DNA of 53,503 nt from positions 1 to 53,503 of the forward strand of contig CACWPS010000012.1 in assembly GCA_902762875.1 (NCBI GenBank), read 5' to 3'. This document shows positions 1 to 12,065 of the stretch, piece by piece. Below the pieces are notes generated by a model that made no database searches, was not told where the DNA came from, and worked only from the letters and a program-made list of their open reading frames with translations. Every line of letters begins with the position of its first letter. Position 1 is the first letter of the stretch. Source of the DNA: Oscillospiraceae bacterium. GTDB lineage: Bacteria > Bacillota > Clostridia > Oscillospirales > Acutalibacteraceae. A program made the position numbers and the translations under genes.

Positions 1-1
1 C

Positions 2-121
2 AAGAACGGATATGTTGAATTCCGAGGATTTTTCGGCGAATATGCCGCCGAAGCAGAGGGCAAGGAGTTCCACATAGCCATACATAAAAATGAAAGCAGC
101 AACTTTGAACTGTCTTTATAA
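2..121 (+). CDS. C-terminal end of a xylanase-like glycoside hydrolase (partial)
   Basis: The frame is open from the window edge and stops at TAA 119-121, giving 39 C-terminal residues. They contain FRGFFGEY followed by a short beta-type tail. A similar FRGF(Y/H/L)G-Y segment closes many GH10 endo-xylanases, so the full gene may be a xylanase; this rests on one remembered motif. The stop lies 10 bases before the ATG of the next gene, so the two are probably co-transcribed. The catalytic part is outside the window. Any other beta-sandwich-ending secreted protein is possible. Confidence 0.45.
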   Translation, partial: KNGYVEFRGFFGEYAAEAEGKEFHIAIHKNESSNFELSL

Positions 122-131
122 GGGTGATATA

Positions 132-860
132 ATGAAAAAAGCGTTAGTTACGGGTTCTTCAAGAGGAATCGGCAGGGCGATAGCGGTTCGCCTTGCAAAG
201 GACGGATATTATGTATTTGTTCATGCAGCGGGAAATATAGAAAAAGCGCATGAAACAGCCGAAATAATAGCCCAAAACGGCGGTAAGGCCGAGGTTGTAA
301 CAGCAAATCTATGCGATATTAAGCAAACAGAAAAATTAGCTGAAACGGTTAAGGATATAGATGTGCTTGTTCTTAACGCCTCATTGCAGTACCGTACCCC
401 GTGGGCGGAAATAACCGCCGAGGAGTGCTACGAGCAGTTAAATTGCAACTTTGTGTCTTCTATGCTGTTAATTCAGGCGGCTGTGCCTTATATGAAGAAA
501 AACGGCTGGGGAAGAATAGTAACCATAGGCTCTGTTCAGGAGGCAAAGCCCCACCCTGATATGCTTGTTTACTCCGCAAGCAAGGCGGCGCAGACTAATA
601 TGGTGCAGTCCCTCTCCTTACAGCTTGCAAAGGACGGCATCACCGTAAACAATGTTGCCCCGGGCGTTATCTACACCGATCGCAATGTTAAAGCCCTTTC
701 TGACCCGGAATATGCCAAAAAGGTGACCGATAGTATTCCCGTCGGCTTTTACGGAGAGCCAGAGGACTGTGCGGGAATGGTATCCCTGCTTTGCTCGGAC
801 GAGGGGCGTTATATTACGGGGCAGTCGATTTATGTTGACGGAGGAAAGAGCGTACAATGA
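132..860 (+). CDS. SDR-family oxidoreductase (FabG-like)
   Basis: This 242-aa protein is a classical short-chain dehydrogenase/reductase. The cofactor loop TGSSRGIG spans residues 7-14, a LNAS segment replaces the usual NNAG, the catalytic Ser is in TIGS, and YSASK supplies Tyr and Lys. The C-terminal YITGQSIYVDGG is typical of FabG-like enzymes. The likely reaction is NAD(P)H-dependent carbonyl reduction, but the substrate cannot be read. I start at ATG 132 because AGGGTG precedes it and the family begins just before the glycine loop; the longer frame from 90 overlaps the upstream gene. Its stop overlaps the next ATG by 4 bases (ATGA). With a hydrolase on each side, a role in sugar or acid catabolism is as likely as fatty acid synthesis. 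Confidence 0.85.
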   Translation: MKKALVTGSSRGIGRAIAVRLAKDGYYVFVHAAGNIEKAHETAEIIAQNGGKAEVVTANLCDIKQTEKLAETVKDIDVLVLNASLQYRTPWAEITAEECYEQLNCNFVSSMLLIQAAVPYMKKNGWGRIVTIGSVQEAKPHPDMLVYSASKAAQTNMVQSLSLQLAKDGITVNNVAPGVIYTDRNVKALSDPEYAKKVTDSIPVGFYGEPEDCAGMVSLLCSDEGRYITGQSIYVDGGKSVQ

Positions 861-1546
861 AAATTCGGTTTTTAGGTCAGAGCGGTTATCTGCTTAAATC
901 GGGCAATACCGAAATAATAATAGACCCCTATCTTTCGGACAGCGTAAACCGTGTGGCTGGCAGACCCCGCACACTTCCCGTTCCGATAAATCCCAAGGAT
1001 ATAAGATGTGATGCGGTTATATGCACCCACAATCACCTTGACCACTTAGACCCCGATACGGTTTCCGAAATTCCGCCCGAGCAGTATTTTATAACCACAA
1101 AAGAGGGTGTTGAGGAGCTTAAAAGGCTTGGCAGAAAAAATGCCGCCGCACTTAATGTGGGCGACAGTATAAAAATCGGTGATTTCACTTTAACCGCCGT
1201 TTTTGCCGACCATACGGTCGAGACGTTCGGACTGATTGTCAAAGCGGAGAATAAAACACTCTATTTCAGCGGAGACACACTTTACAACGAAAAGCTGTTT
1301 AATATAGCTGAATACAACCCCGACATCACCTTTATCTGCATTAACGGCAGGCTCGGGAATATGAATGTGGACGAGGCGCTTATTACCGCAAAAAAAATCG
1401 GCGCAAAAATAAACATTCCAAACCATTATGATATGTTTGAATCAAATTCTGAAAACCCGCTCCTTTTCTCCGAAAAAATTTCAGGCGGCTTTGTAATGGA
1501 GTTTAACAAAGAATATTTATTAGAAAAAGATTTGATATTAAAATAG
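857..1546 (+). CDS. MBL-fold metallo-hydrolase, UlaG-like
   Basis: The 229-aa protein has the metallo-beta-lactamase fold signature HNHLDH at residues 58-63, an early DPYL strand, and later SGDT (Asp ligand) and NHYD (His ligand) segments. The compact single-domain layout resembles the UlaG / L-ascorbate-6-phosphate lactonase-like branch of the superfamily. It probably binds two metal ions and hydrolyses a lactone or phosphoester in the cytoplasm; the substrate is unknown. It starts inside the stop of the SDR gene (ATGA overlap), so the two are translationally coupled. A strong terminator follows, ending this operon. It is not an antibiotic beta-lactamase by this reading. Confidence 0.8.
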   Translation: MKIRFLGQSGYLLKSGNTEIIIDPYLSDSVNRVAGRPRTLPVPINPKDIRCDAVICTHNHLDHLDPDTVSEIPPEQYFITTKEGVEELKRLGRKNAAALNVGDSIKIGDFTLTAVFADHTVETFGLIVKAENKTLYFSGDTLYNEKLFNIAEYNPDITFICINGRLGNMNVDEALITAKKIGAKINIPNHYDMFESNSENPLLFSEKISGGFVMEFNKEYLLEKDLILK

Positions 1547-1560
1547 TCTAAAAATTTAAA

Positions 1561-1608
1561 AACCTCTGTGTTTGATAGATTTATCAAATGCAGAGGTTTT
1601 TTGTGTTA
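1561..1608 (+). terminator. Rho-independent terminator of the SDR/MBL operon
   Basis: AACCTCTG pairs with CAGAGGTT and TTTGATA pairs with TATCAAA across a short loop, followed by a run of T. It lies 14 bases after the MBL stop. Confidence 0.85.
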
Positions 1609-1617
1609 AAATAATCC

Positions 1618-1646
1618 GAATAGTATACAAGCCGCCAATCATATTT
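1618..1646 (+). promoter_or_regulatory. Possible sigma-G-type promoter of the deacetylase gene
   Basis: GAATA (1618-1622), a 17-base spacer and CATATTT (1640-1646) resemble the forespore sigma-G consensus (GMATR, 17-18, CATNHTA) with one mismatch at the end of the -10. No good sigma-A promoter is seen here. It fits a spore-wall deacetylase but is short and A+T rich, so chance is possible. Confidence 0.35.
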
Positions 1647-1683
1647 TTAATATGTAACCACTAATAAAAAAGGAGAGGCAGTT

Positions 1684-2226
1684 ATGAAATTTTTAATAAT
1701 AACAAAAAAGCATATTATGTTGGGAATCGCTGCGGTGTTAGCTGTGACGGGTATAACGGTAGGCTCTATGAGCGCCTTTGCAAACAATGACCGAAAGCTG
1801 CCGATTTACTGTGTCGAAACCGATAAAAAGCAGATTGCGATTTCATTTGATGCCGCTTGGGGAAATGATGACACCCAAACGCTCATAGATATTTTAAAGG
1901 AATACGATGTGCCCGCAACCTTTTTTGTAGTGGGTTCTTGGGTGGATAAATACCCCGAATCGGTAAAGGCCCTTTCCGATGCAGGGCATCAAATTCAAAA
2001 CCACTCCAACACCCACCCGCATATGCCCCAGCTTTCAAAAGAGCAGATGCGGGACGAAATAGAAAGCTGTAATAAAAAGATTGAGTCGATAACCGGCGTT
2101 TGTCCTACCCTACACCGCCCGCCCTACGGGGACTATGACAACGCCCTTATAGAAACCCTCGCCAGCCTTAATATGTACACAATCCAATGGGATGTTGAAA
2201 CACTTGCAACAAAAGTAATAGTGTGA
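1684..2226 (+). pseudogene. Polysaccharide deacetylase (PdaB-like), N-terminal part, interrupted by an element
   Basis: Residues 1-34 form a signal/anchor helix. NodB-fold motifs follow: SFDAAWG (54-60), NHSNTHPH (106-113, metal His) and RPPYGDYD (145-152). The true gene sequence ends at WDV (residue 171); the last 9 residues are read from the inserted element. Motifs 4 and 5 (DVDSLDW, IVLFHN) are found 4.9 kb away at 7084-7337. Joining the fragments at ATGTTGA gives a 253-aa deacetylase, the normal length for Clostridia PdaB-like sporulation deacetylases that act on peptidoglycan. SD AGGAGAGG precedes ATG 1684. As it stands, the product lacks catalytic residues and should be inactive unless the element excises. 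Confidence 0.9.
2192..2219 (+). other. attL: core plus right arm of attP
   Basis: Core ATGTTGA (2192-2198) is followed by a 9-base spacer and AACAAAAGTAAT (2208-2219). The last 12 bases are the exact reverse complement of ATTACTTTTGTT at 7068-7079 in attR. The inferred attP is therefore a pair of perfect 12-bp inverted arms separated by 20 bp that contain the core. This matches the symmetric half-sites bound by large serine recombinases. Confidence 0.88.
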
Positions 2227-2232
2227 TATAAT
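2204..2232 (+). promoter_or_regulatory. Promoter of the recombinase gene, inside the attP arm
   Basis: TTGCAA (2204-2209), 17 bases, TATAAT (2227-2232). The attP arm AACAAAAGTAAT occupies the spacer, so recombinase bound at attL or attP should cover the promoter and repress its own gene. That last step is inference. Confidence 0.7.
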
Positions 2233-2335
2233 ATGCAAGGGAAAGATATCTTTTGTGGTGCTTCAAGCAGTGAAAAAGATAGGATTTTCAAAGAAATACT
2301 TGATATTATATTTTCAAAAAAAGGGGATGTTGAAA

Positions 2336-3820
2336 GTGATAGCGATATATGCGAGACAGTCGGTAGACAAGAAAGACAGTCTTTCAATAGAAACTCAAAT
2401 TAACCTTTGCACCAATTACATAAATGCTAGCCCACACTCTGAAACGATTGAAACATATCAGGATAAAGGTTATTCAGGAAAGAATATTCACAGACCTGAT
2501 TTTACACGAATGATGGCAGATATAGAAAGTGGCAAAATATCAAAAATCGTTGTTTACAAACTTGATAGAATAAGCAGAAATCTTTTAGATTTTATGAGTA
2601 TGTATAAAATCTTTAATGAGCATAAAATTGAGTTTTGTTCTGTAAATGATACTTTTGACACTACTACCCCTATGGGTCGCGGTATGTTAAAAATAGCAAT
2701 GGTTTTTGCGGAAATGGAACGAGAGTCAATTCAACTCCGTGTTAAAGATAACTATTACGAACGGATTAAGGATGGCAGATGGGCGGGTGGTCCAGCCCCT
2801 TATGGTTTTAAAAACGGAAGAACAAAAAACAATATACCTACACTTATTAGAGTTAGCGAAGAAATTACCGCCATTAAATTAGCATTTAATCATTATGAAG
2901 ATGATTTTGCAATGTCTCTCGGTAAGGTGGCAAGATTACTTGAAAAAAAGGGATACCAAAGCAGAAAACGGAAAACATTTGACAATGTTACAATCGCTCG
3001 TATTTTGCAAAACCCTGTTTATGCAATAGCAGATGAAACCTTATATAAGTTTTTCAAAACAAGAAAAGCAAAAATAATTAACCCCATAGAAGAATGGGAT
3101 GGCACTCGTTCCGCAGTAATAGTCGGTAAAAGGGTTGCAAATAATAACACAAGAAAATATACTGACTTGTCGGAACAAACAGTTTATTTAACTAATTTTA
3201 AGGGTTTTATAAAATCAAGACAATATGTTAAAGTGCAAGAACGATTGGCACAAAATCAACAAATTAAGAGAGCAAATGCACCGACAAGAATGGAAGAATT
3301 GGCAGGGTTAGTTAAGTGTAGCAAATGCAAAGAACACTATGCTGTTAAAATGTATAATGCTAACAAACTTGATTGCTATGGTAATCGTTCACTGCATTTA
3401 TGCGATGCTACTTTCAAAACGGTCAATTTTGAAGAATTAAGAAAAAGCATCCGTATAAAAGTTTTGGATGTTATAAAACACTTGGCAGAGCGAGTTGAAA
3501 AAAGTGAAAGAGGTTATAAAAAAATAGAGGAAGAGTTAAATGAATTAGTTAAAAAACGAGATAATCTCGTTTTGTTATCTTTGGGCAAAAGCAAATTAGA
3601 AAAAGCATTTGCAGATACTATTGAGAAATTACAAGACCAAATAGAAGAAAAGGAATTGCAACTGTCAACATACACTCCTATCAGATATGAAGCCTTTAAT
3701 TTTGACCTTATTGAAATGGAACTTGCTGATGTTGAAAAGGCAAAAGAGATTTACCGCAAACTAATTAAAAGGGTTTTACTTGAAGAAAACGGCGATTACA
3801 CAATAGAGTGGAAGATATAA
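2336..3820 (+). CDS. Large serine recombinase (site-specific integrase/excisionase)
   Basis: The N-terminal resolvase domain begins IAIYARQS, with the nucleophile Ser at residue 9 from the chosen start, then YSGKNIHRP and VVYKLDRISRN. A Recombinase domain follows (GRWAGGPAPYGF onward), then a zinc-ribbon region with CSKC and later Cys pairs, then a coiled coil and C-terminal beta region. This is the full large-serine-recombinase plan. I prefer GTG 2336 because AGGGG lies 9 bases upstream; ATG 2327 would sit directly on that SD, and the 2255 frame start has no support. It is the only recombinase in the element and is placed next to attL, as usual. It should catalyse attP x attB integration; excision would need a directionality factor, possibly one of the small ORFs. 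Confidence 0.93.
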   Translation: MIAIYARQSVDKKDSLSIETQINLCTNYINASPHSETIETYQDKGYSGKNIHRPDFTRMMADIESGKISKIVVYKLDRISRNLLDFMSMYKIFNEHKIEFCSVNDTFDTTTPMGRGMLKIAMVFAEMERESIQLRVKDNYYERIKDGRWAGGPAPYGFKNGRTKNNIPTLIRVSEEITAIKLAFNHYEDDFAMSLGKVARLLEKKGYQSRKRKTFDNVTIARILQNPVYAIADETLYKFFKTRKAKIINPIEEWDGTRSAVIVGKRVANNNTRKYTDLSEQTVYLTNFKGFIKSRQYVKVQERLAQNQQIKRANAPTRMEELAGLVKCSKCKEHYAVKMYNANKLDCYGNRSLHLCDATFKTVNFEELRKSIRIKVLDVIKHLAERVEKSERGYKKIEEELNELVKKRDNLVLLSLGKSKLEKAFADTIEKLQDQIEEKELQLSTYTPIRYEAFNFDLIEMELADVEKAKEIYRKLIKRVLLEENGDYTIEWKI

Positions 3821-3821
3821 C

Positions 3822-3864
3822 AAAAAAGATATGAGAGATTTTAGTTTTCTCTCATATCTTTTTT
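3822..3864. terminator. Bidirectional terminator between recombinase and mob module
   Basis: AAAAAAGATATGAGAGA pairs with TCTCTCATATCTTTTTT around a short loop. T runs on both strands end the recombinase transcript (plus) and the mob/small-ORF transcript (minus), which converge here. Confidence 0.85.
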
Positions 3865-4008
3865 TGCTTTTTCTTCATTGTAAATCTGCTCTGCTTGTTT
3901 ATAAGTGCAGTTTGTCTTTTTTCGTATTTCTGCAATTCGGAGTGCCTTTTTCCATTTCTCAACATTACACCTTTTGCACTCTTTTTCATAATTGGAATCA
4001 TTACACAT
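3841..4008 (-). CDS. Small hypothetical protein (55 aa) downstream of mob
   Basis: The ORF starts at ATG 4008 on the minus strand, 4 bases after the mob stop, with GAGG 7 bases upstream. The product has an N-terminal pair of cysteines (CKRC), a basic helix (KWKKALRIAEIRKK) and a lysine-rich tail, compatible with a small DNA-binding or zinc-knuckle protein. No family was recognised. Its stop lies in the terminator hairpin. Coupling to mob suggests a mobilization accessory role or a recombination directionality factor, both inference. Confidence 0.6.
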   Translation of the reverse strand: MCNDSNYEKECKRCNVEKWKKALRIAEIRKKTNCTYKQAEQIYNEEKAKKDMREN

Positions 4009-4012
4009 ACAA

Positions 4013-4699
4013 CTACCTCAATTCATCAAAAATATCACTTTCAAGGGATTGCGGTGCAATTTCTTTTTCATCTGATAAAACATTGTTTGCCATTTCAATC
4101 AGTTCTTTTTCCAACCTTTCACTTTCTGCTTTGTGCCATTCGTGTAGTGTTTGGTGTCTTGCCCCTGTCTGCTCCTTGCTTTCGCCACGAATAAGACCAA
4201 ACTGAGCCATTGCAGCCGCATAACTGTCTTGTAATTCAATTATTTGAGATTTCTTTCCAAAATACTTACTTGCATTAAACTTACCATTATCAAAAGTGGA
4301 AATATACCCGTGTATATGGAATGTTTTTTCATCCGCATTGGTAAATAACTTTAATAATTTTTCTTTTCCAAAGGTCTTACACAACCATTTAACATTTGCC
4401 TTTATCCACTCATTTTTATCAATCGAATCTTCCATTTCGGGCGAAAAAGTTAAAACGAATTCTGTTAATACAACGGCATCTTTTCGCACCTTTTTGCCTG
4501 TCGCTTTCTCTTGAGCTTTAATTGCTCTTTTTAAAGTCTTTCGCATTGTTTCATTATACTGGCTATATGAAATATTTTCTTTTTCTCTTTCGGGGTGTGC
4601 TCGGTTTTGTAGTCGCTTTCTGTATTTTTGGTGTCGCTCAATATTTGCTACACTACCGAGTTTGTATTTTTGAAATCGCATTATCGCATAATTGCTCAT
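4013..4699 (-). CDS. MobV/Pre-family relaxase (short form)
   Basis: The 228-aa protein begins SNYAIMRFQKYK, as Pre/Mob plasmid recombination proteins do. It carries ENISY, KDAVVLTEFVLTFSP and DEKTFHIHGYI with the H-x-H metal motif, then FNASKYFGKK, GLIRGESKE and GARHQTLHEWH. These are the conserved MobV relaxase blocks. It would nick oriT and attach to the 5' end for transfer by a helper conjugation system. Pre/Mob proteins are usually 350-450 aa, and this one lacks the long C-terminal region, as in compact integrative mobilizable elements. SD AAAGGAG lies 8 bases before ATG 4699, inside a hairpin. It is translationally close to the 55-aa ORF. Confidence 0.88.
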   Translation of the reverse strand: MSNYAIMRFQKYKLGSVANIERHQKYRKRLQNRAHPEREKENISYSQYNETMRKTLKRAIKAQEKATGKKVRKDAVVLTEFVLTFSPEMEDSIDKNEWIKANVKWLCKTFGKEKLLKLFTNADEKTFHIHGYISTFDNGKFNASKYFGKKSQIIELQDSYAAAMAQFGLIRGESKEQTGARHQTLHEWHKAESERLEKELIEMANNVLSDEKEIAPQSLESDIFDELR

Positions 4700-4709
4700 A
4701 TCAAAAACT

Positions 4710-4772
4710 CCTTTGCTTTGAAATCAAGAGCAAAGGAACGGCAACACACACGAAAGGAAAAGTGCTGCCGTT
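4710..4772. promoter_or_regulatory. Two inverted repeats upstream of mob: candidate oriT / SD-masking hairpin
   Basis: CCTTTGCT (4710-4717) pairs with AGCAAAGG (4729-4736), extended by TTGA/TCAA. The mob SD AAAGGAG lies in this stem. A second repeat pairs 4737-4747 with 4762-4772 (10 of 11 positions). MobV oriT sites are inverted repeats next to mob, so this is the best oriT candidate; no nick site was identified. The stretch 4773-4970 holds no gene, only a small palindrome GGTTTATACTAAACC near 4890. Confidence 0.45.
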
Positions 4773-4978
4773 TAACCTTACGAAAAACCACTTGGAAAAC
4801 GGTGTCTTTTCGTGCGGTCATATCTCTGCTCTACAAAATCAGTATGTGAAATCTGGTTTTATTTCGGCAGAAATATGACTTACTACGGTTTATACTAAAC
4901 CTGTAAGGTCTTGCAGACGGCATTTGCAAAAAATATCTCTCATATTTATTGCAAAGAAAACGAAAGGAGCAAACGAAA

Positions 4979-5083
4979 ATGAACGAAACACTTTACGATT
5001 TAGAGCAAAAAAGAAAAGCGGTTGAACAAGATATACAGGCATTATATGAAACCTTACAAAAAGAAATTGCTCAGACCGATTAA
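4979..5083 (+). CDS. Small coiled-coil ORF (34 aa)
   Basis: ATG 4979 has AAAGGAG 9 bases upstream. The product is one charged amphipathic helix (LEQKRKAVEQDIQAL) with no recognised family. Its stop sits in the loop of the following terminator. The strong SD supports translation. Small helical ORFs in integrative elements can be excisionases or mobilization accessory proteins, but nothing here decides that. Confidence 0.5.
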   Translation: MNETLYDLEQKRKAVEQDIQALYETLQKEIAQTD

Positions 5084-5094
5084 GGTCTGAGCAA
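5068..5094. terminator. Bidirectional hairpin between convergent genes
   Basis: TTGCTCAGACC pairs with GGTCTGAGCAA around GATTA. It separates the 34-aa ORF from the XRE gene arriving on the other strand. Only weak T tracts follow. Confidence 0.65.
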
Positions 5095-5097
5095 TAA

Positions 5098-6174
5098 TTA
5101 TTTCATTTTTTCTTGTAGGCGGTTTAAGACCTTTTTAAACCTTGATTCATTTTCAAATGGTTTTAAACTTTTTGCACTAGAGATTATATTATAATATCTT
5201 TCAAAGTCGGAAATTGGAACATTAAAAGACATTGTGTTTTTATCAAAAGTCAATTTTGACAACAACGGCGAATTGTATTTTTGACCGCCGTTTGATAATA
5301 CACTTTCTATGGTTTCAAAAATATTTACAACTTCTTCCATCGCATTAAACATTTCATTGACTTGGTTGAGTTTCGCATAAGCGAACATTAAATCTTCGTA
5401 TGCACTTGCTTTCATATACAATAAATATCCTTCTTCACCAAGTGCCTTTATAATTGCTAATGCTCTATGGCAAACATCAATAGCAATATTGGGGTCTCCC
5501 CAAATATAATTATGCTTTGATATGCAAAGAATGTCGCATAATATTTTTTCAGCACTTGCGAGGATGCAATCCGCTTTATAATCTGCTCTTTCCTTTGCGG
5601 GAACGGCAAGGCTTAATAAATCCATTTTTGAATATGCAACATCAGGTAATAAATCAGCAGTTTCTTTTACTTTTTCTCTTTTCCCACAAAACGAGTAAGC
5701 AAATGCCAAATCAACAATAGTTTTATATCTGATTTTATCAATATTGCAATCACGAAAAATCAAGTTTGCCTTTTGTTCTATATTTGCAAGCCATTCATCA
5801 GTATCTTCATAAACCATTACTTTATATTCAATCAAATCGCTTAATAATTTGTGTTCGTTTGGATATGTTTTTAATGCTTCTTCAATAATTTCAATGCTTT
5901 TATTGATTTCGCCTGTATGGGTATAACTCCTTGCTTGTTTTAATATGGTTTCAATTTTTTCGTTAGTATTATCAAGAGAAACACCCAACAAGTAATCTGC
6001 AGTAACACCAAAAAAATTAGCAATCGCAGGCACAAGTGTTATATCAGGGAAAGCAATAGAGTTTTCCCATTTTGATACCGCTTGATATGACACCCCTAAA
6101 TACTCGGCAAGAGTATCTTGTGTTGTATGACTATCGTTTCTAATTTTCTTTAATCGTTCCCCAAAGTTTTTCAT
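5098..6174 (-). CDS. XRE-family regulator with TPR-like helical repeats
   Basis: The 358-aa protein has an N-terminal HTH of the Cro/C1 type (FGERLKKIRNDSHTTQDTLAEYLGVSYQAVSKWEN), then about 290 residues of helical TPR-like repeats. This layout is that of peptide- or protein-sensing regulators of the Rgg/PlcR-like kind, but no peptide gene is visible nearby. The start at ATG 6174 is fixed by AAAGGGAGGT; the longer frame runs into promoter DNA. Two promoters with identical -10/downstream sequence precede it, suggesting autoregulation. It probably controls element genes or excision. It could also be a passenger host-interaction regulator. Confidence 0.85.
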   Translation of the reverse strand: MKNFGERLKKIRNDSHTTQDTLAEYLGVSYQAVSKWENSIAFPDITLVPAIANFFGVTADYLLGVSLDNTNEKIETILKQARSYTHTGEINKSIEIIEEALKTYPNEHKLLSDLIEYKVMVYEDTDEWLANIEQKANLIFRDCNIDKIRYKTIVDLAFAYSFCGKREKVKETADLLPDVAYSKMDLLSLAVPAKERADYKADCILASAEKILCDILCISKHNYIWGDPNIAIDVCHRALAIIKALGEEGYLLYMKASAYEDLMFAYAKLNQVNEMFNAMEEVVNIFETIESVLSNGGQKYNSPLLSKLTFDKNTMSFNVPISDFERYYNIISSAKSLKPFENESRFKKVLNRLQEKMK

Positions 6175-6196
6175 TATATTACCTCCCTTTGAGATA

Positions 6197-6295
6197 ATTA
6201 TATAGAACTTATTAAAACATATCAATAACTGTGTCTTTTAGTTCTGCTCAACCCCAAGTTGAGATAATTATAGCACAAATAAAAAGAAATTACAA
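6197..6295 (-). promoter_or_regulatory. Tandem promoters with duplicated operator-like boxes for the XRE gene
   Basis: P1 is TTGATA-17-TATAAT (plus coordinates 6220-6225 and 6197-6202). P2 is TTGTAA-17-TATAAT (6290-6295 and 6267-6272). Both -10 boxes lie in the same 14-mer TTGAGATAATTATA, present at 6189-6202 and 6259-6272. A palindrome CTCAAC-5-GTTGAG (6247-6263) abuts P2. The repeated box is a good candidate for the regulator's own binding site. Confidence 0.7.
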
Positions 6296-6352
6296 TAAAT
6301 TGAATTGTTTTCGTTTTTCAAACTCAACAAACATACTTAAATCAAATTAAAT

Positions 6353-6389
6353 AAAAAAAGACCTAATTCCACGGAATTGGAATTAAGTC
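6353..6389 (-). terminator. Terminator on the minus strand
   Basis: 6360-6371 pairs with 6378-6389 (12 pairs, one G-U on the minus-strand RNA), followed on that strand by seven U. No minus-strand ORF lies just upstream of it, so it may end a non-coding transcript from the right end of the element. Confidence 0.6.
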
Positions 6390-6454
6390 GCAGTTCATTA
6401 CTTCCCAATAAGCAATGAACTTTGATATAAGTATGATAAAACACTTAAAAAATC

Positions 6455-6490
6455 AAAGTCCTGTCGGTAAGTAATTGACAGGACTTTTTT
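6455..6490 (+). terminator. Terminator-like hairpin on the plus strand
   Basis: AAGTCCTGTC pairs with GACAGGACTT across an 11-base loop and is followed by T6. Upstream 6393-6420 holds another hairpin (GTTCATT/AATGAAC). No ORF feeds it. Confidence 0.6.
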
Positions 6491-7067
6491 CTCTTGCTTG
6501 GTTTAGGCGGTGCATAACACCGATAAGCACCATAAAATAATTCGTGTGTGGACGAGCATAAGTAATAAATCGCCTCGGCGGTTTGAGTGTGGTTTCTCAA
6601 ATTGTCGTCAATGGAAAAGGTTGTCAGTAAATCGCCATATAAAAAAAGAGAACTGTGCGGGTGGAACCTCTGAAAAAGGAACTATTGTATAAAATCAAGG
6701 GCGGAGTGAGATTTCCTGTAAGGGTTGCAATAGTAGGCAATGAAAAAACCTAACTCTTAAACCACGATGCGAACGGAACGAAAGCGAAAGCACACCGTTT
6801 CACTAATTAGAGTTTTTCCTTGCTTTTTGCAAGGGGAAACTCTATCATCTGCTCACTCCACTCCGCTCTGCTCCCGTTTGCACTTTTAAAAATTAAATCG
6901 AAGATTGAGCATAACATAAAACACAGTAAAAATAATAACATAAACCTTTTGAAACGAGCATCAAGCGAAGTTTCAAACCCTTGGTTCTTTGGGGATAAAG
7001 AACGAAAGGGGTGAATAGAGCGAGGCATCGCCTCGCTCTAGAGGGGAAAACAACAAAAAAATATTAT

Positions 7068-7090
7068 ATTACTTTTGTTTCGTATGTTGA
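7068..7090 (+). other. attR: left arm of attP plus core
   Basis: ATTACTTTTGTT (7068-7079), TCGT, then core ATGTTGA (7084-7090). Immediately after it the host gene resumes with DSLDW codons. Together with attL this defines attB as the PdaB-like codons for WDVDSLDW, a conserved stretch of the gene. Confidence 0.88.
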
Positions 7091-7337
7091 CTCCCTTGAC
7101 TGGAAGGAAAACGCCACACCCGATACAATTTGTCAAAGGGTGACAAACAAGGTTAAAAACGGCTCTATTGTCCTTTTCCACAACGACGCCGACAATACGC
7201 CCGCAGCTCTGCCCACGATACTCAAATGCCTAAAAGACGAGGGGTATGAGTTTGTGTTTATAAGTGATTTAATTCTTAAAGACAATTACGAAATCAAACA
7301 CGACGGAACGCAGTGCAAACTAAAAGACGGCGAATAA
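7084..7337 (+). pseudogene. Deacetylase C-terminal part 1 (separated by the element)
   Basis: From VDSLDW onward this encodes the last 80-odd residues of the interrupted deacetylase, with NodB motif 4 (DSLDW) and motif 5 (GSIVLFHND, metal/catalytic His region), then GYEFVFISDLI and a short polar tail. GTT at 7086-7088 is in phase with GTT 2194-2196 of the N-terminal part, so excision gives a continuous frame. An ORF start at 7011 exists but lies in element DNA with no convincing SD. The stop overlaps a terminator. Confidence 0.9.
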
Positions 7338-7349
7338 TCGCCGTCTTTT
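7322..7349 (+). terminator. Terminator of the deacetylase gene
   Basis: AAAAGACGGCGA pairs with TCGCCGTCTTTT around ATAA; the loop contains the stop codon. The next 90 bases (to about 7440) hold no gene, only repeated AGAACCGTCC-type motifs common in Clostridia intergenic DNA. Confidence 0.85.
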
Positions 7350-7443
7350 CCTATGCCACAAAGACAGAGAACCGTCCCCTGTCTTACCATTCACATAAAT
7401 ACTCTGTCCCCTTGCGTTCTACACACAGAACCGTCCGTTTTTA

Positions 7444-7472
7444 TTGACCTGTATTCAAAAGTATGGTATAAT
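7444..7472 (+). promoter_or_regulatory. Promoter of the TPR cargo gene
   Basis: TTGACC (7444-7449), 17 bases, TATAAT (7467-7472). Transcription would begin near 7479, shortly before ATG 7496. Confidence 0.75.
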
Positions 7473-7495
7473 TTTATGTATCTAAAAAACAAAGG

Positions 7496-8197
7496 ATGAG
7501 AAATATAAAAAATTTACGCAAAGGTCAAATATTGTGGTTTATCGATAAAGAGAATTCAAAAGAGGAAAGTGTAGTAATAAACGAGGTGTGCAAAGAAACT
7601 TTCACTTTTATTTATAAAGGCAAACCGATAAAATGCCCAAAAGTAAAAATAGGCAACGGTATTTATAAGCATTCTAAAAACAATGCAAAAATTTTCTATA
7701 TGGGCGAATTGTTTTTCTTTGATGGAAAATGGAAAAGATATGATAATAAAATTTATAGTGCAAAGTATCAAGATAAATTATCTAAAATATTTGATAAAAG
7801 ATTCCCTTTTAGCGAGCTCGCAACCTTACTTTTGATAGAACGAGCACGGAAAGCTAAAGAGTCTAAAAAATACGATATTGCTATAAGTTATTTTGAAATT
7901 GCTTTACTCAAATCATCAATTAGTGAAGTATTAAATTATATATCTGAATTAACTTCATTATATAGAAAATGTCATAGACCTAATGCTGTTATAGAATTAT
8001 ATAAATACATATGTAAAAAGCATAAAAGTTTTTATTTTCCGAATTCTTTCCTAACATCGCTTTCGGCTGCTTATTTAGATATTGGAAACAAAGAAAAAGC
8101 ATTACAATATGCAGGTGAGGTTTATGGTAGAATGGGAGGAAAAAAAGATAAGGAATTAGAAAAAATTTATTTTAGAATAAACACATACCGTGATTGA
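7496..8197 (+). CDS. TPR-like cargo protein of unknown function (233 aa)
   Basis: The protein has an N-terminal small beta-rich part (KGQILWFIDKENSKEESVVI) that may be an SH3-like fold, and a C-terminal helical part with TPR-like repeats (AKESKKYDIAISYFEIALL; KALQYAGEVYGRMGG). No known family was recognised. Its A+T-rich codon use matches the element and not the host flanks. It ends 8 bases before the arm of the orphan attR, the position expected for cargo at the right end of a second, mostly deleted element. ATG 7496 touches its SD (AAAGG); a TTG near 7531 with AAAGG 7 bases upstream is an alternative start. Confidence 0.65.
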   Translation: MRNIKNLRKGQILWFIDKENSKEESVVINEVCKETFTFIYKGKPIKCPKVKIGNGIYKHSKNNAKIFYMGELFFFDGKWKRYDNKIYSAKYQDKLSKIFDKRFPFSELATLLLIERARKAKESKKYDIAISYFEIALLKSSISEVLNYISELTSLYRKCHRPNAVIELYKYICKKHKSFYFPNSFLTSLSAAYLDIGNKEKALQYAGEVYGRMGGKKDKELEKIYFRINTYRD

Positions 8198-8205
8198 AAT
8201 TAAAC

Positions 8206-8228
8206 ATTACTTTTATATCTAATGTTGA
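8206..8228 (+). other. Orphan attR-like site
   Basis: ATTACTTTT, a 7-base gap and ATGTTGA (8222-8228), followed by deacetylase codons. The spacing and the 9-base arm match attR at 7068-7090; the gap sequence differs. No partner attL is present downstream of 7090. Confidence 0.75.
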
Positions 8229-8469
8229 CAGTCTTGACTGGAAAGATACCGCCACCCCCGACAGTATTTGTAAGCGTGTTACATCAAAAGTAAAAAACGG
8301 CAGTATAGTACTCTTCCACAACGACGCCGACCACACCCCCGAAGCCCTGCCGACCATTTTAAAATGCCTTAAAGATGAGGGATATGAGTTTGTATTTATA
8401 AGTGATTTGATACTTAAAGAAAACTATGAAATCAAACACGATGGAACGCAGTGCAAAATTAAAGAATAA
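8222..8469 (+). pseudogene. Second deacetylase C-terminal fragment (paralogue remnant)
   Basis: It encodes VDSLDW to the end of a PdaB-like deacetylase, about 80 residues. The protein is very similar to the fragment at 7084-7337 (GSIVLFHNDAD, GYEFVFISDLIL, IKHDGTQCK), but many codons differ at the third position. It is therefore an old paralogue and not a fresh duplication. Its N-terminal half is missing. The ORF start at 8194 lies in element DNA. Most likely a tandem deacetylase gene was hit by a related element and then lost its left half. Confidence 0.85.
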
Positions 8470-8580
8470 AAAAATAATAAATAATAAAAAATGTGCCGTG
8501 CGATGCACGGCATTTATTATACCGTTTCGCTATGCGAAACACCAATTTTTTCTTTCTTCTTTATTATTTATTCTTTAAAA
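8462..8580. repeat. MITE-like A+T-rich palindromic element
   Basis: AAAGAATAAA and A/T-rich flanks are repeated in inverted form at both ends. Inside are two perfect hairpins: TGCCGTGC/GCACGGCA (8494-8512) and GTTTCGC/GCGAAAC (8524-8540). It abuts the stop of the fragment above; the first hairpin may act as its terminator. Confidence 0.5.
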
Positions 8581-8754
8581 TATCGTAGGGACAGGCGTCC
8601 CCGACTGTCCGTTAATCCAACACAATAGAACCGTCCCTGTGTGTTTCTGTGTGGTGACCTTAGTATATTACTTTTTGCAATAAATGTAAAGAATAAAAAC
8701 ACAAAAAGAAAGACAACTCAACATAAAAAAGAAAAACACCTCAACATAAGGTGC
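8581..8754. other. Intergenic stretch with short repeats
   Basis: Contains the GGGACAGGCGTCCCC and AGAACCGTCC motifs also seen at 7360-7435, then A+T-rich DNA with TTATGTTGAG twice on the minus strand (about 8715-8750) just upstream of the antisense-RNA promoter. No ORF. Confidence 0.5.
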
Positions 8755-8783
8755 TTGACAAGTACGGAAATATGTACTATAAT
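8755..8783 (+). promoter_or_regulatory. Consensus promoter of antitoxin RNA 1
   Basis: TTGACA (8755-8760), 17 bases, TATAAT (8778-8783): a perfect sigma-A promoter, as expected for an abundant antisense RNA. Confidence 0.88.
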
Positions 8784-8789
8784 ATAGGT

Positions 8790-8877
8790 GAAATAAGGCA
8801 CACCGTATAGACGGTTAACCTATTTTGTAGTTAAAAAGATAACCGCAACTTTTGGTCGAGGGCGGTTATTTTTTTAT
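8790..8877 (+). ncRNA. Antitoxin antisense RNA 1 (type I TA)
   Basis: A transcript from the promoter above would run about 88 nt to a terminator (ATAACCGC/GGCGGTTAT then T7). It has a 5' hairpin (ACCGTATAGACGGT). Its 3' end is complementary to the end of the toxin mRNA, including the last toxin codons. The same architecture recurs at 16345-16436, which supports a real RNA gene. Confidence 0.75.
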
Positions 8878-8937
8878 GCTTATTATGTAACCGATTACAA
8901 GCACCATAAGAATTATGATAAATGTTTCTTGTTCCAT
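8866..8937 (-). CDS. Type I toxin 1, holin-like (23 aa)
   Basis: This short ORF encodes MEQETFIIILMVLVIGYIIS followed by IKK, a single membrane helix with a basic tail. The SD AAAGGGGGTG precedes ATG 8937. The size, charge pattern and strong SD match the Hol-Tox / TxpA-like class of small Firmicutes toxins. It should insert in the cell membrane when its antisense RNA is lost. A hairpin CCCTC/GAGGG lies upstream in the leader. The second locus at 16423-16509 encodes a similar peptide in the same arrangement. Confidence 0.75.
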   Translation of the reverse strand: MEQETFIIILMVLVIGYIISIKK

Positions 8938-9041
8938 TGGCACCACCCCCTTTATTCAAGAGGGCGAAAAGTGTGCCCTCTCAAAAGAGGGACAACCGCC
9001 TACCGTTGTGATAGTCCTTAGGGGTGCAAAGCACCATACAT

Positions 9042-9070
9042 ATTTTAACATATTGAGACATATTACGCAA
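9042..9070 (-). promoter_or_regulatory. Promoter of toxin 1 mRNA
   Basis: On the minus strand TTGCGT-17-TAAAAT (plus 9065-9070 and 9042-9047). The leader is about 100 nt and includes GGTGC/GCACC and the SD-proximal hairpin. Confidence 0.6.
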
Positions 9071-9107
9071 CAGTATCATTTTTAAAGTTTTCATGCCACG
9101 CTTAGTC

Positions 9108-9136
9108 TTGACGAAAGTGAAATAATGTGTTATAAT
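9108..9136 (+). promoter_or_regulatory. Promoter of the hydrogenase-maturation operon
   Basis: TTGACG (9108-9113), 17 bases, TATAAT (9131-9136), giving a leader of about 140 nt before ATG 9282. Confidence 0.8.
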
Positions 9137-9234
9137 AATCTTACAATCTGACATGAAGTTTTCTGCGCGGTATTTGCGGAATTCCGAGGTGAAAGATGCA
9201 CAGATAACAAAACTGATTTTAAGTATATATCTGA

Positions 9235-9264
9235 CCGCATCGTTTACCCGATGCGGTTTTCATT
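9235..9264 (+). terminator. Leader terminator / attenuator of the hyd operon
   Basis: CCGCATCG (9235-9242) pairs with CGATGCGG (9249-9256), followed by TTTTCATTTT. It sits between the operon promoter and the first SD (AAAGGAG), so it should reduce or control read-through. The upstream leader contains CGGAATTCCG but matches no riboswitch I know. Confidence 0.6.
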
Positions 9265-9281
9265 TTAAAGGAGAATGAGAA

Positions 9282-9542
9282 ATGGAAACACGGGTTGCCG
9301 TTATGGGCATTATTGTTGAAAAGACCGATTCGGTTGAAGCGCTAAACTCGCTTTTACATCAATACGGACAGTATATCATAGGCAGAATGGGTCTTCCCTA
9401 TAGGGATAAAAGAATAAATATTGTCTCTATCGCTATAGACGCCCCGCAGGATACCATAGCGGCGCTTGCGGGAAAAATCGGGGCTATTGACGGGGTAAGC
9501 GTAAAGACCGCCTATTCAAATGTGATTACCAATGCAGAATAA
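9282..9542 (+). CDS. TM1266-like iron-only hydrogenase system protein
   Basis: The 86-aa protein has a ferredoxin-like/ACT-like pattern (RVAVMGIIVEKTDSVEALNSLLHQYGQYIIGRMGLPY, INIVSIAIDA) typical of the TM1266 family, which sits in [FeFe]-hydrogenase maturation operons and is predicted to be regulatory. SD AAAGGAG is 7-8 bases upstream of ATG 9282. Its 3' end overlaps hydE by 11 bases, so the genes are coupled. Its molecular role is not established. Confidence 0.85.
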   Translation: METRVAVMGIIVEKTDSVEALNSLLHQYGQYIIGRMGLPYRDKRINIVSIAIDAPQDTIAALAGKIGAIDGVSVKTAYSNVITNAE

Positions 9543-10617
9543 GCTTTATTCCCTTATAGATAAATTAGAAAAGGAGCACAGCCTTTCCCCCGATGAATAT
9601 AAACAGCTGTTGGATGGACGCACCCCCGAATTAGCGGAGTATACGGCGAAAAAAGCGGTGGCGGCAAGGCAGGCGGTTTACGGAAATGATGTATATGTTC
9701 GAGGACTTATCGAGATAAGCAACATCTGCAAAAATGACTGTCTTTATTGCGGAATACGCCACAGCAACAAAAGCTGTTCACGATACCGCTTAGGTGAAGA
9801 GGAAATCCTCTCCTGCTGTGAAGAGGGGTATGCTTTAGGCTTTCGCACCTTTGTTATGCAGGGCGGCGAAGACCCCTTCTTTACCGATGAACTGCTTTGC
9901 GACTTAATAGGTAAAATCAAAAAGCAATATCCCGACTGTGCGGTAACCCTTTCCCTCGGAGAACGCAGCTTTGACAGCTACAAGGCGCTGTTTGATGCGG
10001 GGGCGGACAGATATTTGCTAAGGCACGAAACAGCCGACCCCGAATTATATAAAAAGCTCCACCCTGAGGATTTGTCCTTTGAGAACCGTATTAATTGCCT
10101 TAAGAACCTAAAGGAAATAGGTTTCCAAACAGGTTGCGGCTTTATGGTGGGTGCACCCTATCAAACAAACAGCTCCTTAGCGGCGGATTTAAAATTTGTA
10201 GAGGAATTCCGCCCCGCTATGTGCGGAATAGGACCCTTTATTCCCCACGGGGCAACACCCTTTGCTGAATTTAAGGCGGGAACCCTTGAAGTCACCCTGT
10301 TTTTACTTTCGCTGTTAAGACTTATGGACCCGAGCCTTTTATTGCCCGCCACCACGGCGTTGGGTACTATTAACCCCACAGGGCGTGAGCAGGGCATTTT
10401 AGCGGGGGCAAATGTTGTTATGCCCAACCTCTCCCCCGTATCGGTACGCAAAAAATACGAGCTGTACGATAACAAAATCTGTACGGGTGAGGAATCGGCA
10501 CAGTGTAAAAGCTGTTTAAGTAGAAGAATGGAATCAATAGGCTACAAAATAGTCACCGCAAGAGGGGACAAAAAGCCTTTTAATATTCAATTAAAACAAG
10601 AAGGAAGTAATAATTAA
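9532..10617 (+). CDS. hydE: [FeFe]-hydrogenase maturase HydE (radical SAM)
   Basis: The 361-aa protein has the radical-SAM motif CKNDCLYC (residues 66-73), a glycine-rich MQGGEDP strand, and a TIM-barrel ending with MPNLSP, as in HydE. HydE takes part in building the diiron subcluster of the H-cluster on HydF. The start at ATG 9532 lies inside the TM1266 gene. The last base of its stop is the first base of the hydG ATG (TAATG), showing tight coupling. Confidence 0.95.
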   Translation: MQNKLYSLIDKLEKEHSLSPDEYKQLLDGRTPELAEYTAKKAVAARQAVYGNDVYVRGLIEISNICKNDCLYCGIRHSNKSCSRYRLGEEEILSCCEEGYALGFRTFVMQGGEDPFFTDELLCDLIGKIKKQYPDCAVTLSLGERSFDSYKALFDAGADRYLLRHETADPELYKKLHPEDLSFENRINCLKNLKEIGFQTGCGFMVGAPYQTNSSLAADLKFVEEFRPAMCGIGPFIPHGATPFAEFKAGTLEVTLFLLSLLRLMDPSLLLPATTALGTINPTGREQGILAGANVVMPNLSPVSVRKKYELYDNKICTGEESAQCKSCLSRRMESIGYKIVTARGDKKPFNIQLKQEGSNN

Positions 10618-12065
10618 TGTCACAGTACAATCCAAAATCCCTGAAAGCCGAGGAATTTATAAGCCACGAAGAAATCCTTGAAACTTTGCGTTATGCAGAA
10701 GAAAACAAGCACAATATCCCCTTGATTGACAGCTTACTCAAAAAAGCAAGGCCTGTTAAAACCGCAAACGGCGTACACTGTGCGGGACTTACCCACAGAG
10801 AGGCTTCGGTACTCCTTGCCTGCGACATTCCCGAAAAGGTGGAGGAAATGTACCGCCTTGCCGAGGAAATCAAGCTTGCCTTTTACGGCAACCGCATTGT
10901 TATGTTTGCCCCATTGTACCTTTCAAATTACTGCGTAAACGGCTGTGTTTACTGCCCTTATCACTATAAAAACAAGCACATCGCCCGCAAAAAGCTTACC
11001 CAAGAGGAAGTAAAACAAGAGGTTATTGCCCTACAGGATATGGGGCACAAGCGCCTTGCTATAGAGGCGGGGGAAGACCCTGTAAACAACCCTATTGAGT
11101 ACATTCTTGAATGTATTAAAACCATTTACAGTATCCAACACAAAAACGGCGCTATACGCCGAGTAAATGTAAACATTGCCGCCACCACGGTGGAAAACTA
11201 CCGCAAGCTTAAGGAGGCGGGCATAGGCACCTACATTCTTTTTCAGGAGACCTACCATAAGGAAAGCTATCTTGAGCTTCACCCCACAGGTCCTAAGCAC
11301 GATTACGCCTACCACACCGAGGCTATGGACCGTGCTATGGAGGGTGGAATTGACGATGTAGGCTTAGGTGTACTCTTCGGTCTTGAGGGTTACCAATACG
11401 AGTTTGCGGGACTGTTAATGCACGCCGAGCATTTAGAGGCGGTGCACGGCGTAGGGCCCCACACCATAAGCGTTCCGAGAATTAAGCGTGCAGACGATAT
11501 TGACCCCGATGTATTCGATAACGGAATTCCTAACGAAATTTTTGAGAAAATCATAGCCTGTATCCGCATTGCCGTACCCTACACGGGTATGATTATTTCC
11601 ACAAGAGAGAGCGAGGAAGTCAGGGGCAGAGCGTTAGAGCTTGGCATTTCCCAAATAAGCGGTGCCTCCCGTACATCTGTTGGGGGATACACAGAGGAGG
11701 AGCGCCCCCACGATTCCGAGCAGTTTGATGTTTCCGACCAGAGAACCCTTGACGAGGTGGTAAACTGGCTGATGAAGAAGGGCTTTATCCCCTCGTTTTG
11801 CACCGCCTGCTACCGTGAGGGCAGAACGGGCGACCGCTTTATGAGCCTTTGCAAAAACGGGCAGATTTTAAACTGCTGTCACCCCAACGCACTTATGACG
11901 CTAAGCGAATACCTTGTAGATTACGCAAGCGAGGATACCAAAAAGGTTGGCTTTGAGCTGATTGAAAGGGAGCTTAAAAAAATTCCCGCAGAGAAGGTCT
12001 GCAAAATTGCAACCGAGAATATTGAACAGATTAAAAACTCCAACCGCCGCGATTTTAGATTTTAA
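10617..12065 (+). CDS. hydG: [FeFe]-hydrogenase maturase HydG (radical SAM tyrosine lyase)
   Basis: The 482-aa protein has CVNGCVYC (106-113) for the radical-SAM cluster and the C-terminal CTAC-x22-C motif for the auxiliary cluster that carries the dangler iron. HydG cleaves tyrosine to give the CO and CN ligands of the H-cluster. The length is normal. ATG overlaps the hydE stop by one base; hydF follows 12 bases after its own stop. Confidence 0.96.
   Translation: MSQYNPKSLKAEEFISHEEILETLRYAEENKHNIPLIDSLLKKARPVKTANGVHCAGLTHREASVLLACDIPEKVEEMYRLAEEIKLAFYGNRIVMFAPLYLSNYCVNGCVYCPYHYKNKHIARKKLTQEEVKQEVIALQDMGHKRLAIEAGEDPVNNPIEYILECIKTIYSIQHKNGAIRRVNVNIAATTVENYRKLKEAGIGTYILFQETYHKESYLELHPTGPKHDYAYHTEAMDRAMEGGIDDVGLGVLFGLEGYQYEFAGLLMHAEHLEAVHGVGPHTISVPRIKRADDIDPDVFDNGIPNEIFEKIIACIRIAVPYTGMIISTRESEEVRGRALELGISQISGASRTSVGGYTEEERPHDSEQFDVSDQRTLDEVVNWLMKKGFIPSFCTACYREGRTGDRFMSLCKNGQILNCCHPNALMTLSEYLVDYASEDTKKVGFELIERELKKIPAEKVCKIATENIEQIKNSNRRDFRF

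Follow-up and report, generated by a model that had tools for sequence, protein, structure and literature searches.

A mobilizable element and probable gene-restoring cassettes at one serine-integrase target in a deacetylase gene of Oscillospiraceae

A serine-integrase element that lands in a gene usually deprives the host of it. Integrons hold single-gene cassettes at one site and rely on a tyrosine recombinase. The locus considered here lies on a contig of 53,503 nucleotides from an Oscillospiraceae bacterium (CACWPS010000012.1, assembly GCA_902762875.1; the whole stretch is referred to as the window), where an integrative mobilizable element (IME) of 4.9 kb splits a PdaB-like polysaccharide deacetylase gene and is followed by a putative cassette and a second copy of the gene's 3' end. 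The cassettes at this site resemble those of integrons in being mostly single-gene units at one site, but the recombinase is a serine recombinase and the boundary of the unit is a coding 3' end. Positions 1-12000 of the window contain no tRNA gene and no Rfam match over the gathering score, a search for which the presence of an attC model in Rfam was not checked.

IMEs, cis-mobilizable elements (CIMEs) and accretion are described in PMC5704250. The serine-integrase IMEs of Firmicutes treated there (in rumA of streptococci, and Tn4451) share with the present element a serine recombinase together with a relaxase, an intragenic site, a short shared core and disruption of the target gene. Here, by contrast, the target is a PdaB-like deacetylase gene, one site serves three arm types, and companion cassettes restore the gene. 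CIMEs and accretion (same source) offer a likeness in recombinase-less units that possess an attachment arm and stand in tandem with another element at one target; the left border of the present cassettes, however, is the rebuilt gene rather than attL, and each unit carries 82 target codons and usually a single-gene cargo. The ssrA islands of Dehalococcoides (PMC3146451) involve the same recombinase family, form tandem islands of which 15 lack an integration module, and repeat the 3' end of their target. Their repeat is 20 bp of the tmRNA gene, whereas that described here is about 250 bp of diverging coding sequence. The intervening elements of spore genes (skin, gin, yin and SPbeta) likewise consist of a recombinase element that splits a gene; no sign of programmed excision was seen at the present locus. 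Within the limited literature searched, which covers subscription journals thinly, no report of a deacetylase target or of gene-restoring serine-integrase cassettes was found.

The split gene and its crossover

At one serine-integrase target in the window, a mobile element is probably stacked with a cassette (Table 1), an arrangement in which the IME would deliver recombinase-less, gene-restoring cassettes as a variant of cis-mobilizable elements. In support of this reading, the same element ends recur in four species, and seven elements with three arm types all have the dinucleotide GA at the crossover. The split gene had been noticed in an earlier note on this DNA, and that observation is confirmed as a whole: the element splits the gene, the ends join in frame, and the circular form has perfect inverted arms. 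When 1684-2196 is joined to 7089-7337, a single open frame of 253 aa with WDVDSLDW inside results, as the note had claimed, the cut following codon 171; unjoined, the 5' half runs on into the element as far as a stop at 2226. The PdaB-like assignment holds in that TIGR02764 (PdaB) outscores all other models on the uninterrupted gene of relative G069, though its 218.1 bits lie below the curated cut-off of 237.4.

Table 1. Features of the deacetylase locus, in window coordinates
Feature	Position	Strand	Basis
PdaB-like polysaccharide deacetylase 5' half, 171 codons	1684-2196	+	Polysacc_deac_1 E 7.5e-41; aligned across relatives
attL: GGATGTT-GA-AACACTTGCAACAAAAGTAATA; crossover GA 2197-2198	2190-2220	+	left end same in G026, G054, G056; other GA-bearing left ends in G035, G038, G028, G021
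Integrative mobilizable element, 4.9 kb	2197-7088		same end sequences in G026, G054, G056
Large serine recombinase, 500 aa	2318-3820	+	Resolvase E 3e-36; Recombinase E 2.3e-10; best solved relative TP901-1 integrase
MobV relaxase, 228 aa	4013-4699	-	Mob_Pre E 1.8e-25; NF041497 116.2 bits, cut-off 100
HTH_3 + TPR-like protein, the element's own cargo	5098-6174	-	HTH_3 E 8.5e-12; other genes there in G056, G026, G054, G035
attR: TATTACTTTTGTTTCGTATGTT-GA; crossover GA 7089-7090	7067-7090	+	right end same in G026, G054, G056
First deacetylase 3' half, 82 codons + stop, start of apparent cassette	7089-7337	+	in-frame join; protein at most 93% identical in relatives
Apparent cassette, 1138 bp, with deacetylase 3' end, single cargo gene and right-hand attachment arm	7089-8226		one of 14 loci with a measured unit
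Cargo gene of the cassette, 233 aa, matching TPR weakly	7496-8197	+	no match in other 197 of 198 genomes
attR' of cassette: ATTACTTTTATATCTAATGTT-GA	8206-8228	+	arm comparison
Second, displaced deacetylase 3' half	8227-8469	+	80% identity of 7059-7327 and 8197-8465; following 8726-8816 recurs past last 3' end in relatives

The attachment sites were compared across relatives, coded G001 onward (G000 is the window's own genome; further loci are coded L). In the rebuilt circular junction, ATTACTTTTGTT (7068-7079) and AACAAAAGTAAT (2208-2219) form the perfect 12-bp inverted arms, 20 bp apart, that the note had described. They in fact extend by one pair to 13 bp, a length never reached in 500 Markov resamplings of the junction, in which 12 was reached once. 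ATGTTGA does occur at both ends, at 2192 and 7084, but since this 7-mer is seen 7 times within the first 9 kb it is by itself no evidence, and the 7-bp repeat is rejected as the core because GA alone is common to the attL and attR of the seven compared elements (G000, G026, G054, G056, G035, G038 and G028). These are the first two bases of an Asp codon in WDVDSLDW, and the comparison of element ends thus narrows the crossover to GA. One arm type is shared by the window, G026, G054 and G056, a second belongs to G035, and a third to G038 and G028; the left end of G021 resembles that of G038. All 70 first codons of 3' halves also have GA, which is expected from the conserved Asp codon and proves nothing by itself.

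An attB within the deacetylase codons and an attP with symmetric arms, as previously proposed, are supported by both the element ends and the genes that span the junction. Such uninterrupted genes number 47, comprising 46 genus genomes plus G118 from a different genus; W..D.LDW is kept in 44 of them (exact WDVDSLDW in 17), and the remaining three have SHDW or SIDW. A stop is flagged within the matched 3' part in G004, G017 and G063, so that reading across the junction does not equal being proved functional. The element's boundaries are shared by related copies: G026, G054 and G056 contain the window-type element with recombinases 92-96% identical and the same ends, which lie on separate contigs in G054 and G056.

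The element has its own relaxase and serine recombinase and no mating-pore genes, which fits the definition of an IME. It also holds one small open reading frame (ORF), and none besides the three named genes exceeds 124 aa. With its MobV protein over the cut-off and a cargo that differs in each of the four relatives read (G056, G026, G054 and G035), it looks like an ordinary mobilizable element. The deacetylase halves are about 49 kb apart on one contig in G028 and about 13 kb apart in G038, which indicates inserts of very different size at one site.

Cassette units in the window and its relatives

The earlier note confined the arrangement to 2192-7090. These boundaries are too narrow, since they miss the second 3' end and its cassette, the more surprising part of the locus. 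Its interpretation is supported in part: it stands for a serine-recombinase element whose site is empty or filled in relatives, and falls short in the cassette. Positions 7059-7327 are repeated at 8197-8465, 80% identical over 269 nt with the ATTACTTTT arm included. A 91-bp stretch that is single-copy in the window (8726-8816) is found 0.3-1.1 kb past the last 3' end in G069 (95.6%), G015 (79%), G031 (73%) and L242 (80% over 56 bp) among the loci examined. Apparently, then, the native flank begins beyond the second 3' end and the insert is 7089-8226, although the evidence is thinner than that for G052 and G068 described below. A close full-length paralog in the same genome is ruled out as the source of the second 3' end, the other matches there being 31% and 28% identical, and a search of that genome for another close copy of the 5' half found none.

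When the 82-aa 3' half was used as a query against 198 genomes (own included), 156 gave matches, and several genus mates gave two close matches on a single contig. Nearly all relatives are metagenome assemblies, and those that are named are metagenome-assembled genomes (MAGs) of Clostridia/Oscillospiraceae, many of them from goat, deer, sheep, buffalo, cattle or horse. The census maps the window and 74 of 75 fetched stretches (G068:C42 was left out), with a genus set of 70 genomes; G118 and 12 further MAG loci were examined in addition. Among the 70, in overlapping groups, the gene spans the junction in 46, two 3' ends lie on one contig in 11, and a recombinase element is present with the 5' half in view in five (G000, G026, G035, G054 and G056). 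A remnant second 3' end is found in G002, G007, G057 and G063, and an arm-preceded 3' end in G015, G016 and G022, where the 5' half is out of view; G015 shows a short remnant as well, with 2 mismatches in its arm. Two partial 3' ends are separated by 4 kb in G018, and a 5' half alone is found in G008, G010 and G021.

Units could be measured at 14 loci: the 11 genus genomes with two 3' ends on one contig, G118, and L227 and L246, which are named MAGs and two of the 12 further loci. They range from 695 to 2863 bp. In 10 of the 12 units measured first the arm is present within 1 mismatch; that of G029 is degenerate and that of G064 is missing. Close relatives show that the units are inserted exactly. 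G052, which lacks a unit, aligns with G068 on both sides (G052 7626-8423 with G068 8353-9150, and 8189-8875 with 9831-10530), the extra 915 bp of G068 lying between the two core copies, and G064 shows the same order against G052. Units are therefore located at the crossover, and the gene ahead of them is complete. Free of mismatches, the arm occurs 14 times in the 70 genomes, each time at a deacetylase 3' end or remnant. The left border of a unit is a complete 3' half that continues the gene and the right border is attR', so that the flanking attL and attR of a CIME are not found, while the lack of integration and transfer genes typical of CIMEs holds for the ORFs of all 14 units (Pfam searches of 8 cargo proteins gave none). 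In G050 a HipA-like gene precedes the first arm; next come a 3' end and a DUF6883 gene, followed by another arm and another 3' end, an order that represents either two units in a row or an element and a unit. On direct reading, a right end like GCAAAATGCACAAGCCCTTATAAAATATTACTTTTG is common to several loci and may be a promoter next to the arm.

Thirteen of the 14 units have one main cargo ORF. The main ORF is on the opposite strand in 11 and on the same strand in two (the window and G038), and G055 has one of each. TPR-like cargo is found in the window and G033, and lipoprotein-like cargo, by direct reading, in G045, G068, G059, L227 and L246. G118 carries a membrane protein with a zinc-ribbon-like end (direct reading; similar ends occur at the remnant loci G007 and G063), G029 a barstar (E 6.4e-21), G050 a DUF6883 protein (E 1.6e-7), and G055 an ATPase/STAS protein with a second gene. 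No pair of cargo proteins matches at 1e-3 with the low-complexity filter, and the cargo of the window has no homolog in the other 197 of the 198 genomes. The notion that all cargoes are unrelated is nevertheless rejected, because the five lipoprotein-like cargoes share N-termini when the filter is off; with composition correction off too, the cargoes of G064 and L246 match weakly over 65 residues. PADLOC, run on five cargo proteins from the 14 units, matched one (the ATPase/STAS protein of G055, DrmA, E 2.4e-27) and not the other four; an anti-phage function is among the readings rejected. DUF6883 was likewise rejected as a gene tied to the site, only 3 of its 11 places in the genus lying at a deacetylase 3' end or no more than 5 kb from one.

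Some cargo families appear to return to this locus. Beside the uninterrupted deacetylase gene of SIG570 (L248), where there is no arm and no second 3' end, lie homologs of the cargoes of G068 (72%), G118 (47%) and G029 (62%). SIG570 is either an old array whose marks are lost or the type of neighbourhood from which cassettes were taken. The homolog of the G029 cargo is a barstar-like gene at L248 2149-2430, just upstream of the deacetylase gene.

A possible transfer cycle and its alternatives

Comparison of relatives shows the first two stages of a possible cycle. The serine recombinase inserts the mobilizable element at the GA of the Asp codon in WDVDSLDW, cutting the gene. Units composed of a spare 3' end, usually one gene and a right arm occupy that GA in many relatives; the 5' half then reads into the spare 3' end to give a whole gene, and the old 3' end is displaced downstream, where some copies have decayed. 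For the movement of the cassettes we infer a series of reactions, each of an ordinary serine-integrase kind. An element ahead of a cassette might recombine its attL with the distal attR' rather than its own attR, and the circle of element and cassette could integrate (attP x attB) in the gene of a new host. If the element later exits alone by attL x attR, the cassette would stay behind with a restored, chimeric gene. This cycle starts from cassettes already formed, with a cargo gene lying between 3' end and arm.

Contig ends suggest that the junction is probably polymorphic. Contigs stop shortly past codon 171 in 4 of 59 5' halves (G031 and G010 by 2 bp, G022 by 1 bp and G008 by 11 bp), whereas the number expected among 59 is 0.039 (P 9e-8). 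The G031 contig that ends at GGTTGA has an overlap of precisely 141 bases with a junction-bearing contig, the pattern of a branch point in an assembly graph, and in that second contig C follows GTTGA. Had another successor begun with C as well, the break would lie elsewhere; judged from the assembly rather than from reads, the unseen alternative thus probably starts with another base, as attL does. Overlapping partner contigs were looked for in G010, G022 and G008, and none was found.

Several points weigh against cassette delivery by the element. The locus is known from assembled sequence, nearly all of it from metagenomes, and no circle, read or excision has been seen. The cassette arm of the window is of the TATCTA type while the element's own is of the TTTCGT type, and the cassette of G038 is preceded by a recombinase whose arms are quite different, so that stacking can arise by later insertion alone. 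When 1 mismatch is allowed the arm is found at 33 places, against 18 for a backward control, indicating that single-mismatch matches are mostly chance. Within genomes the two copies are patchily alike (in G033, 90-100% over 120 nt and then 63-87%), which gene conversion or homologous insertion would fit too. Which copy is native is ambiguous from identity, the second copy of the window being nearer G069 and the first nearer G043, G007 and G063. Faster turnover of the 3' half is suggestive only: 3' and 5' halves are 74.6 and 71.3% identical over 496 pairs and 81.2 and 86.9% in 9 close pairs, and when more species are included, 3' identity equals or exceeds 5' identity in two of the closest pairs. 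In G055 there is a second cargo gene, and 5 of the 14 cargoes (G059, G045, G068, L227 and L246) share about 45-70 N-terminal residues once the filter is off. The contig-end test relied on rounded numbers for the contigs, and other causes too make contigs break close by, before the core in G033, G050 and G015 and inside the 3' half in G003 and G057.

The patchy identity of the two 3' copies also fits the strongest alternative, homologous entry, which seems unlikely but deserves serious weight. A circle of cargo, arm and deacetylase 3' end, arising as an aberrant excision product, would enter by a single crossover in the 250-bp 3' end, and the arm would be a fossil of an older serine-integrase event. 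The same final structure would result without an attR x attB reaction, and on direct reading several cassettes keep a terminator-like CCGTCTTTTTT and host-like intergenic sequence past the stop codon. The many different cargoes, however, would demand repeated rare aberrant circles, and the four contigs that stop 1-11 bp from the crossover would be unexplained, though these may reflect the element rather than cassettes. It is rather improbable that the locus is an ordinary stack, in which the mobilizable element landed ahead of an older, degenerate CIME and no cassette was mobilised. CIMEs and accretion are known for IMEs (PMC5704250), and several of the 3' ends are remnants, yet a decayed element would leave attL at the left, where a complete 3' half continues the gene, and nearly every unit has a single main cargo ORF.

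The possibility of a skin-like element that excises from the deacetylase gene as the cell sporulates, which the earlier note had raised, is less probable still. The gene is PdaB-like, and such elements are reported for sigK, gerE, spsM and yabG. As for the sigma-G-like promoter claimed upstream, a sporulation-sigma-like motif, GAATA-17-CATAT, is indeed present at 1618-1645, and SigG-like factors exist in the genus, though among the matches listed 0 of 70 genomes have one over the curated cut-off. Within 120 bp upstream, 24 of 55 genes (window included) have [GT]AATA-N15..19-CATA, whereas 200 Markov controls give a mean of 1.5 and a maximum of 6; since the motif was picked once 17 of the upstream sequences had been inspected, this count is not independent. 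The relaxase, the exchangeable cargo and the use of the site by three arm types all argue against a sporulation switch. Tandem gene duplication or assembly error as the source of two 3' ends can practically be dismissed even among metagenome assemblies, given that 10 of the 12 first-measured units start the second copy at the same base after the same arm in assemblies of several projects.

Further observations and significance

A SigG-like gene is itself probably split by an element in 11 of the 70 genus genomes, where among the matches listed there are just fragments of it (roughly residues 1-98 to 1-120, and 89-253): G033, G011, G042, G043, G054, G013, G064, G006, G024, G022 and G044 (L195-L211). 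Whole copies elsewhere reach 432.7 bits against a cut-off of 457. Six of eight left pieces run into GTTATAGAGTGTCGAAAT and, with small differences allowed, eight of nine right pieces follow an end like TATTACTTTTTCGCCATTCTATAACC, so that one element family appears to split the gene at one place; G013 and G006 have other ends. In G044 a recombinase-like ORF of 524 aa lies 1.9 kb ahead of the right piece (direct reading). Among the papers listed, no title or abstract opening names sigG as an element target.

With regard to the element, TTGCAA-17-TATAAT (2204-2232, direct reading) spans the left arm and could drive the recombinase. A pattern search for the recombinase in viral contigs gave no match, and all 3908 records from plasmids were below 60% identity. 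PADLOC matched the element's HTH-TPR protein to 11 models (among them RmrA, HTH_VI, PDC-M69A and capH) within its first 147 residues. The related element of G035 contains adjacent ORFs that on direct reading resemble a DNA methylase and a restriction enzyme (L069 5883-7426, oriented). In the window's own genome, G000:C1:13614-21716 has four Recombinase-domain matches in 8 kb.

Units at the site of the element give back the deacetylase gene, now with a different 3' end, and a new gene stays in place. It is conceivable, at somewhat less than even confidence, that the system is a serine-integrase counterpart of the integron, with single-gene cassettes that lack a recombinase, use about 250 bp of host 3' end as landing site and repair patch, and are delivered by mobilizable elements of the same site; the cell would gain a gene and swap the C-terminal third of its deacetylase with each event. 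If the transfer cycle is true, it would constitute an integron-free route of gene capture among uncultured Clostridia of the herbivore gut, and its readable landing marks would make the gain and loss of cassettes measurable in metagenomes.

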